From the NCBI GenBank assembly GCA_021156365.1, contig JAJNDK010000001.1, positions 434,001-498,000 of the forward strand: a stretch of 64,000 bases of DNA, in the 5' to 3' direction. Shown piece by piece: positions 20,085 to 23,105 of this stretch. The translations under genes were made by a program, and so were the position numbers. Origin of the DNA: Bacteroidota bacterium. Its GTDB lineage: Bacteria; Bacteroidota; Bacteroidia; B-17B0; Aurantibacillaceae. The notes below the pieces were generated by a model. The model saw only the letters and a program-made list of their open reading frames with translations, made no database searches and was not told where the DNA came from. How positions within the stretch are numbered: the stretch's first letter is position 1; the number at the start of each line of letters is the position of its first letter.

Positions 20085-20092
20085 CAAAGGTA
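20085..20092 (-). promoter_or_regulatory. glnN promoter -7 box (TACCTTTG)
   Basis: Exact TAnnTTTG match on the minus strand with leader of about 15 bases. A TTTG at 20116-20119 could be the -33 element, but the 23-base spacing is longer than usual. Confidence 0.55.
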
Positions 20093-20221: not shown

Positions 20222-20267
20222 GGAAATATATAAAGCAAAAGCGCAAATAGGCTACAACAACCTGCTG

Positions 20268-20666
20268 CTTCGCGCAAACAAACATCCACTCGCATAAAAA
20301 CAGCTTTTTCCCGCAGCGAAATAGCGTCCGCCCGGATGAGTTTATAGGTTTCTCACAACAAACAAGTGACCACCCGGAGCATTTAAGGTTTCGCCCGGAT
20401 GCTTTTTACGGTTTCTCACAACAAACAAGCGACCTCCCGGAGCATTTCAGCCTTCGCTCGGATACTTTTCGCAATTTCTTTAACAGGTTTTTTATTTTCC
20501 CGGATACTAAGAGCGATCGCTCGATACATTTTAACATTCTCTCGTATACTTTCGGCAATTTCTTTAACTCTTTTTCCATTTTCCCGGATAGTAACGGCAA
20601 TTTCTTTAACTGTTTTTAAGTTTTCCCGGACAATACCAGCGGCCGCTCGGCCAAAAGAGCAGAGCT
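20268..20666. repeat. 21-bp period tandem array (19 units)
   Basis: Nineteen consecutive 21-base units each start with CCCGG, CTCGN, CTCAC or CTTTAAC (unit starts at 20268, 20289, 20310 and so on every 21 bases to 20646). Exact examples are CCCGGATGCTTTTTACGGTT and CTCACAACAAACAAGCGACC. Read on the minus strand, 21 bases equal seven codons and give a heptad pattern R/K-x-L-x-V/C-S-G/E (e.g. RSLLVSG, KLRKVSE, RRLKCSG). Two stops (in units 20604 and 20394) break this frame, and no start is evident, so it is either a decayed heptad-repeat gene or a non-coding array. Together with the glnN upstream region it fills the 600-base gap 20067-20667. Confidence 0.85.
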
Positions 20667-20667
20667 C

Positions 20668-20970
20668 TCAGCCTGCATAAATAACAGCAGGGATCCCTGC
20701 CTTACATGCTTCTTTTATTTTTTGCTCTTCTTCCGGCTCTAAAGAACCAATGAGCAAGCCAACCTTTTGTTTCTGCCAGTCAGCCGATGGATCGCGGCGG
20801 ATCAGCTCTACACCTTGTATACGATAAGAACGCAGGGTACCCGATAGCATAAATTCGATGTGGTCACCCGCAGAAAAATCGCCCTGTTCTATAATGCCTG
20901 CCAGCACAAGTCCTCTGACGGTGATCATAAATGCATCATGGATGATAAGATCCGCTTTCTTTTCTTTCAT
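20668..20970 (-). CDS. Small EF-Tu domain II-like protein
   Basis: 100 residues, soluble. The sequence follows the translation-factor beta-barrel pattern: VRGLVLAGIIEQGDFSAGD, then a strand with RIQGVEL and KVGLLIGSLEPEE, as in EF-Tu/EF-G domain II (G-x-v-x-x-G-x-I-x-x-G-x-i-x-x-G-D). There is no GTPase domain. Free-standing domains of this type occur in other Bacteroidota, with unknown role. It lies directly beside the 21-bp array and 14 bases downstream of the lipoprotein gene that ends at 20985. Confidence 0.65.
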   Translation of the reverse strand: MKEKKADLIIHDAFMITVRGLVLAGIIEQGDFSAGDHIEFMLSGTLRSYRIQGVELIRRDPSADWQKQKVGLLIGSLEPEEEQKIKEACKAGIPAVIYAG

Positions 20971-22091: not shown

Positions 22092-23105
22092 TTATTTCTG
22101 GATACCAATACGTTGCCCGTTCTGATAGAAGACAATAAAACAATCGTATCCTTTGGAAGCAAGATCGGATTTGTGCTTCATAGCCTGTTCGATCGTTGTG
22201 AAGTTGCCCGACAATGCTTTGTAATATCCACCTTCCTGCACGATAGTGACATTAGCACCCGGGAATTTGGATTTGCTGGTAGCATTGGAAAAAGCACCTA
22301 ACTGCACTTTATAGATCATTCCGGAGCTGCCGCTTGTGGAAGAAGAGGTGGAAGTTGTTTTTTCAGAAATGCTTGGAGGCGTATATACAACATCCGTTGT
22401 AGTACTGGATACAGTTGGAGTAGCAACTACAGTATTCGTAGCAACCGGCTCGGTAGTATAAGTAGTGGTTGGAGTGCTGGTAACAGTCTCGGTTATGGTA
22501 GTAGTTGGTGTAACAGTTTCGGTAGGTGTGGAAACTACGGTATTCGTAGCAACCGGCTCCGTCGTATACGTCGTGGTTGGAGTGCTGGTAACAGTTTCGG
22601 TTATAGTAGTGGTTGGTGTACTTGTAACAGTTTCAGTAGGTGTGCTTATTACGGTTTCAGTCGGAGTGCTTGCCACAGCTCCCGAACCCTCGATCCGCAT
22701 AGTGAACATTGCCATCTCCACTTCTTTCTTCACATTGTTCTCCAGGTAAAAGAATTTGGAAGAAACCGAGCAGGAGTTAACTGCATTGGCAGGGATCGTC
22801 ATTTTGAATTTGAAGGTAAAAGAAGCATCACCGGGCACAGAAACCCATACGATCTTCACCCGCTGGTTTTCGTAGGTAAAGTTCCCACCTTTGGAATCGA
22901 TATTGGAAGCGGAAAAACCAAAAGGCAGATCCATCTGGAATTTGGCAAAACCGCCGACACTACCTTTACTGATCGTAAAATCCGCATCGATGCTCTGACC
23001 CGGGGAAATAGTTGCGGGCAGGTTATGGCTTATAGATACTGCGTCCTGGGCATAAGAGCCCAACGTTACAAACACACAAATAAGAACCAGGATAGCTTTT
23101 TTCAT
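22092..23105 (-). CDS. Secreted SPOR-domain protein with Thr/Pro-rich linker
   Basis: 337 residues. Signal peptide 1-19 (ends SYAQ). Residues about 20-145 are a beta-sandwich (FTISKGSVGGFAKFQMDLP, FTFKFKMTIPANA). Residues about 150-250 are a low-complexity linker of TPTETV/TTTYTTEPVATNTVV repeats. The C-terminal about 75 residues are a SPOR domain (YKVQLGAFSNATSKSKFP, YKALSGNFTTIEQA), which in other proteins binds glycan strands that lack stem peptides. Such a protein would sit in the periplasm at sites of wall remodelling. Co-transcribed with the lipoprotein gene. Confidence 0.8.
   Translation of the reverse strand: MKKAILVLICVFVTLGSYAQDAVSISHNLPATISPGQSIDADFTISKGSVGGFAKFQMDLPFGFSASNIDSKGGNFTYENQRVKIVWVSVPGDASFTFKFKMTIPANAVNSCSVSSKFFYLENNVKKEVEMAMFTMRIEGSGAVASTPTETVISTPTETVTSTPTTTITETVTSTPTTTYTTEPVATNTVVSTPTETVTPTTTITETVTSTPTTTYTTEPVATNTVVATPTVSSTTTDVVYTPPSISEKTTSTSSSTSGSSGMIYKVQLGAFSNATSKSKFPGANVTIVQEGGYYKALSGNFTTIEQAMKHKSDLASKGYDCFIVFYQNGQRIGIQK
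22425..22680 (-). repeat. Coding repeat of the SPOR protein linker
   Basis: The linker DNA holds two near-identical stretches of about 105 bases, encoding about 35 residues with TTTYTTEPVATNTVV, plus shorter TPTETV units. This kind of repeat can vary in copy number between strains. Confidence 0.7.

Follow-up and report, generated by a model that had tools for sequence, protein, structure and literature searches.

A Noncoding 21-bp Direct-Repeat Array Upstream of glnN and a Class of Strictly Phased Intergenic Arrays in Bacteroidia

Introduction

Tandem repeats in bacterial genomes are usually dismissed as noise from slippage or assigned to repeat proteins. A tandem array of 21-bp units lying 5′ of the glutamine synthetase gene glnN raises the question of whether it is the remains of a gene encoding heptad repeats or a noncoding DNA element with a role of its own. 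The array lies in a stretch of 64,000 nucleotides, here termed the window, and was compared with intergenic repeats from elsewhere in its own genome and from other Bacteroidia.

The Repeat Array Upstream of glnN

The array consists of 19 direct-repeat units of exactly 21 bp with zero indels. When the sequence was split into 21-bp rows, a core C(T/C)CxxA / TTTC(C/T)CGGA stood in register across most of the 19 rows, bearing out the earlier note, which had read 19 consecutive units in phase and free of indels over 399 bases. Refinement placed the array boundaries at 20250-20669. Self-identity was 0.41 at lag 21 and ~0.50-0.51 at lags 42, 63, 84, and 126 against a background of 0.26, with super-periods of 63 bp in the left part and 42 bp in the right part. 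The mean match over lags 21-168 was 0.466 (z ~32 vs. dinucleotide shuffles) and the highest value at any period of 15-30 in 1000 dinucleotide shuffles was 0.297, such that a random match rate does not reproduce the periodicity. By this measure the array is the top-scoring 399-bp stretch within the window.

The array occupies the interval between glnN and a short ORF resembling domain 2 of EF-Tu, abutting the stop codon of the latter and lying 5′ of the former (Table 1). The name glnN follows sequence knowledge and the earlier note, and TACCTTTG is a candidate -7 element by the established consensus TAnnTTTG of the Bacteroidetes primary sigma factor. In other genomes the stand-alone EF-Tu-like ORF has matches of 28-43% identity, many lying within EF-Tu-sized frames. 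Elsewhere in the window an ORF with a Thr/Ser/Pro-rich linker (22092-23105) carries 108-, 36-, and 24-bp tandem repeats at 22425-22671, which are ordinary coding repeats.

Table 1. Coordinates of the array, its neighbors and members of a linked protein family (window coordinates unless a locus is named).
Feature	Location	Strand	Description
glnN, type III glutamine synthetase, 729 aa	17877..20066	-	ORF; relatives 66-91% identical over whole length
Candidate glnN -7 promoter element TACCTTTG	20085..20092	-	26 bp before start codon, ~175 bp from array
21-bp repeat array, noncoding	20268..20666	.	19 units; core ~TTTC(C/T)CGGA; alternative subunit TTTCTCACAACAAACAAG
100-aa ORF resembling EF-Tu domain 2	20668..20970	-	EF-Tu match E 6.6e-7, far below cut-off
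F2 members	L206:8067-8855; L102:1597-2328; L103:625-1353; loci L306-L335		

A search for the units elsewhere, as the earlier note had suggested, found no other DNA copy of the array sequence in the 5.3-Mb genome and many arrays of the same architecture. A dispersed repeat of the REP, BIME, or MITE type, which needs the same sequence at many sites, was rejected on the lack of a second copy in this genome. A CRISPR was likewise rejected, the units being 21 bp and degenerate with glnN and the EF-Tu-like gene as the only long ORFs alongside. Slippage generating a minisatellite would need a free unit length and units alike throughout; here the unit is 21 bp only and the core differs from the spacer.

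Coding Potential

The earlier note had offered a decayed coiled-coil gene as one explanation. A 21-bp unit corresponds to seven codons and certain frames are partially open; the pseudo-heptads of the window array follow from the divisibility of 21 by 3. In the window array, however, stops are present in all six frames (1-11 each), the two stops originally reported holding for one minus-strand frame only, and codon position carries no signal (p 0.93). In keeping with this, 31 intergenic arrays gave a mean p of 0.56 for mod-3 column variability with 0/31 below 0.05, and their stop counts were not below the column-shuffled expectation, while period-21 repeats inside real ORFs lean toward a codon-position signal (mean p 0.18). 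The arrays of L209, L220, and L213 have at least three stops in every frame. The decayed heptad gene was rejected on the stops in all frames and the missing codon-position signal, and it is regarded as very improbable.

A Class of Intergenic Arrays With a Two-Turn Period

When 2.16 Mb were scanned at lags p to 4p, 17 intergenic arrays emerged at period 21, one at 19 and none at 20, 22, or 23, with repeats of 18, 24, 27, and 30 bp lying mostly within ORFs. In 1.66 Mb drawn from the genome of the window and two genomes of a different family, f4, 24 intergenic arrays were found at 21 and none at 19, 20, 22, or 23. A second array of unrelated sequence and the same strict 21-bp phase lies in L003, a chance match, and no array is present in L002, L004, or L011, which were matched through weak DNA similarity.

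The density in sampled stretches was ~1 array per 80-100 kb in the own genome and ~1 per 30-40 kb in f4, the f4 stretches being mostly contig starts, which seem array-enriched; by extrapolation a genome would hold tens to about a hundred arrays. Close relatives from the same family are mostly without arrays (1 in 383 kb), while single stretches of other genomes yielded two true arrays (L247 and L267), and the occurrence of arrays extends over several Bacteroidia lineages with a patchy taxonomic spread. Two detector matches at lag 21 from other Bacteroidia, L228:12527-12631 (TTTCGGG) and L246:356-470 (TTCAAAG), were set aside as 7-bp tandem repeats. In G066, 5/6 contigs sampled from their start have an array within ~4 kb of it (L218-L221, L223), which suggests that assemblies break at strain-variable array neighborhoods.

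Across 32 arrays the core forms one contiguous block of 5-9 bp per unit (lag-1 column-information correlation +0.21), with no 10/11-bp half-unit sub-period on average. The spacer of the clearest arrays is nearly free in sequence and fixed in length, as in L209, where the core is TrTTAATTG and most remaining columns carry little information. The core is dyad-symmetric in 9/31 arrays. The sequence is private to each locus, and a single core common to all arrays was rejected, there being only a slight excess of shared cores. Phase is held in 580 of the 617 scorable internal units, which sit at offset 0 (~94%), with 4/110 array ends continuing in a shifted phase. Array length has a median of 13.7 units and quartiles of 12.6-15.5 (typically 12-16 units) for a detector that needs ~8 units and misses shorter arrays. 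With its strict 21-bp period, intergenic position and one core per unit, the window array belongs to this class. The own genome also contains an intergenic array that may be a variant of the class departing from the strict 21, with a period of 43 (2 x 21.5 bp) and an 86-bp super-unit (G000:C16:65583-65980), and, on the same contig, a 640-codon ORF with near-perfect 60-bp repeats over ~1.5 kb (G000:C16:233220-235139).

Protein Families Linked to the Arrays

The proteins flanking arrays include recurrent families. Family A1, composed of small HTH_26 proteins, occurs in 15/247 class genomes and has an array at 30/30 fetched loci, in almost every case immediately 5′ of the gene (27/30 loci are non-seed, and some are orthologous or overlapping), against a base rate of 1-3% of sequence lying within 150 bp of an array. 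An f4 HTH_26 protein adjoins ACAATTAACA arrays. In the own genome arrays are found at only 2/8 HTH_26 genes, and the private cores greatly outnumber them. The similarity of cores in gene orientation climbs with HTH identity, with a mean score of 1.72 at 40-60% and below 0 under 40%, and on the opposite strand there is no effect. This trend fits recognition of the core by the neighboring protein but could partly reflect common descent.

The arrangement seen at the HTH loci (30/30), with the array immediately preceding a family-A1 HTH_26 gene, is not shared by the window array; no HTH_26 gene lies beside it, its neighbors being glnN and the EF-Tu-like ORF. Among ~60 arrays, the full-unit profile nearest to its own is that of the own-genome HTH_26 gene G000:C3:21998 (a weak match, p 0.017, not outstanding), whose array also contains TTTCCCGGA and CTCACAACA. 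The resemblance is suggestive only, in that the window core may be a target of that gene.

Family F2 (MSTTESGHARNTANFEQLV..., ~240 aa), which is helical and unannotated, is found in 28/247 class genomes from 16 genera and has an adjacent array at 24/30 loci, 19 at the 3′ side and 5 at the 5′ side, the six loci without an array being among the weakest matches. In the own genome F2 genes have arrays 3′ at 4/4 loci. The six own-genome members of family F1 closest to the seeds have arrays 5′ (6/6), with a weak array at 1/5 of the more divergent or truncated matches. A period control on the A1, F2, and F1 sets gave period 21 in 30, 24, and 10 loci, respectively, and 20 or 22 in at most 1-2. Searches of F2 against Pfam, NCBIfam, PHROGs, and PADLOC gave no family above cut-off, and a structure prediction from two sequences reached a pLDDT of 38, too low to be usable. 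Co-variation of F2 protein and array core was rejected as a general pattern, being seen among close relatives only. NCBIfam, PHROGs, and PADLOC returned no function for the array-linked families, and the linked proteins stand as uncharacterized small HTH_26 proteins, all-helical 'TESGH' proteins, and helical proteins with fn3 or CarboxypepD_reg.

HTH_26 genes have their arrays directly on the 5′ side and F2 genes mostly on the 3′ side, and among relatives the core keeps its orientation relative to the gene. This would also be compatible with arrays that act as RNA, produced on either side of the linked genes and serving as a repeat antitoxin or sponge in the manner of type III toxin-antitoxin systems. 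We consider this improbable. On neither strand does folding of the window array surpass that of shuffled sequence (z +1.46 and +0.83), an Rfam search with it returned no credible match, spacer positions are unconstrained, and the linked proteins match no PADLOC model. For the window array a type III toxin-antitoxin repeat RNA was rejected on the same folding scores, which show no structured repeat.

DNA Curvature

Any sequence repeated at 21.0 bp sums its bends in phase, and the arrays might therefore be no more than intrinsically curved DNA. With wedge values the predicted net bend was 6.4 degrees/turn for arrays, compared with 3.4 when they were re-spaced to 20 or 22 bp and 3.7 for the flanks. 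Permuting columns within the unit, however, leaves the predicted bend equal (6.40), indicating that curvature beyond that given by the period is not selected, and curvature as the explanation has a low probability. Neither RNA folding nor selected DNA curvature is supported as the basis of the arrays.

Evolution at Conserved Sites

An array lies immediately upstream of glnN in 5/5 glnN-bearing f4 genomes, and likewise in L041 and in the window. L186 and L187 share a homologous array, in which 15 substitutions and a single indel of 42 bp (2 units) separate them, the flanks having 12 indels of mixed length. L185 has the same tatA and glnN flanks as L186 and L187, yet carries an unrelated array. 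The arrays of L101-L103, L041, and the window are mutually different, except for some core common to L102 and L103. The position of the array persists while its sequence is replaced.

Such turnover bears on the main rival, a mutational machine building 21-bp arrays, in which some enzyme or a step of replication, with a footprint of two turns, tandemly duplicates 21 bp of any sequence present at intergenic sites near certain mobile gene families, and recombination by whole units holds the phase of a product without function. The private sequence at each locus is well explained in this way, as are the fixed unit length, copy changes by whole units, the 42- and 63-bp super-periods, the swapping of sequence at one site and the patchy taxonomic spread. 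Against it, copying equalizes all columns, yet a contiguous core is conserved beside a near-random spacer (L209); very few units are out of phase in strongly diverged arrays; the size range is narrow; and, read in gene orientation, cores are still retained at 40-60% HTH identity. A functionless mutational product is judged unlikely, with a probability that is still appreciable.

A Model for Array Function

The reading we favor, at roughly even probability, is that the window array, a noncoding member of the class described above lying upstream of the glnN promoter, is a DNA-protein array phased to the helix and bound cooperatively, the binding being inferred. Each unit would expose a single recognition core of 5-9 bp, recurring on the same helix face every two turns, on which a sequence-specific DNA-binding protein could assemble cooperatively as a filament or patch. 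Cooperative assembly on one face is proposed because the two-turn spacing is fixed with one core per unit, and spacer change is tolerated where indels are not. The earlier note had likewise put forward a noncoding, helically phased array that a protein might bind on one face; this option has gained from the exclusivity of 21 bp, the contiguous core, the near-absence of indels and the orthologous recurrence, while binding on one face keeps its inferred standing. At the subset of arrays adjacent to HTH_26 genes the neighboring Cro/C1-type protein would be the obvious reader and would probably be autoregulatory. The glnN array may be a trans-regulated or organizing element, acting from upstream of the promoter. 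A plain promoter-operator role cannot cover all arrays, since F2 genes mostly have theirs on the 3′ side and several arrays lie between convergent genes.

More broadly, and with slightly less assurance, the arrays may constitute a new chromosomal element of ~14 two-turn units with a held phase and a locus-private, fast-turnover core, coupled to uncharacterized protein families and representing either array-specific assemblies or an array-building machine. A description of such an array class was not found in the open-licence PubMed Central literature. Across many loci and several families, noncoding DNA holds to a period of exactly two turns while its sequence is replaced, and protein families travel with it; these findings point toward a system for reading or writing DNA that is so far undescribed.

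Comparison With Known Repeat Systems

Plasmid iterons are direct repeats of 17-22 bp bound by Rep. The window array, with 19 phased direct repeats of 21 bp, falls within this size range, and the arrays share with iterons an approximately two-turn spacing, element-specific sequence and phased binding, the last being presumed here. In contrast to iterons the arrays are chromosomal, number an estimated tens per genome and have 12-16 units with a conserved core and free spacer. No replication initiator (rep) gene adjoins the window array, which has glnN and the EF-Tu-like ORF beside it on a 755-kb contig. Minisatellites and VNTRs resemble the arrays as tandem repeats whose copy number changes between relatives, but in the arrays unit length is fixed, conservation is mainly in the core and phase is held despite strong divergence.

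BldC, a small HTH protein, forms cooperative head-to-tail multimers on direct repeats (PMC5859096), and the assemblies proposed here follow by analogy from this combination of a small HTH protein and direct repeats. BldC is MerR-like and reads ~9-bp repeats of one consensus (PMC5859096), whereas the present arrays have 21-bp units with a separate core per locus and Cro/C1-type HTH_26 proteins near a subset. The TAACTGA heptamer repeats of Beggiatoaceae, Cyanobacteria, and some Bacteroidetes are likewise intergenic direct repeats present in many copies per genome, with a proposed regulatory role (PMC4679880). They differ in having a fixed 7-bp sequence close to start codons (PMC4679880), as against 21-bp units of private sequence in the arrays.
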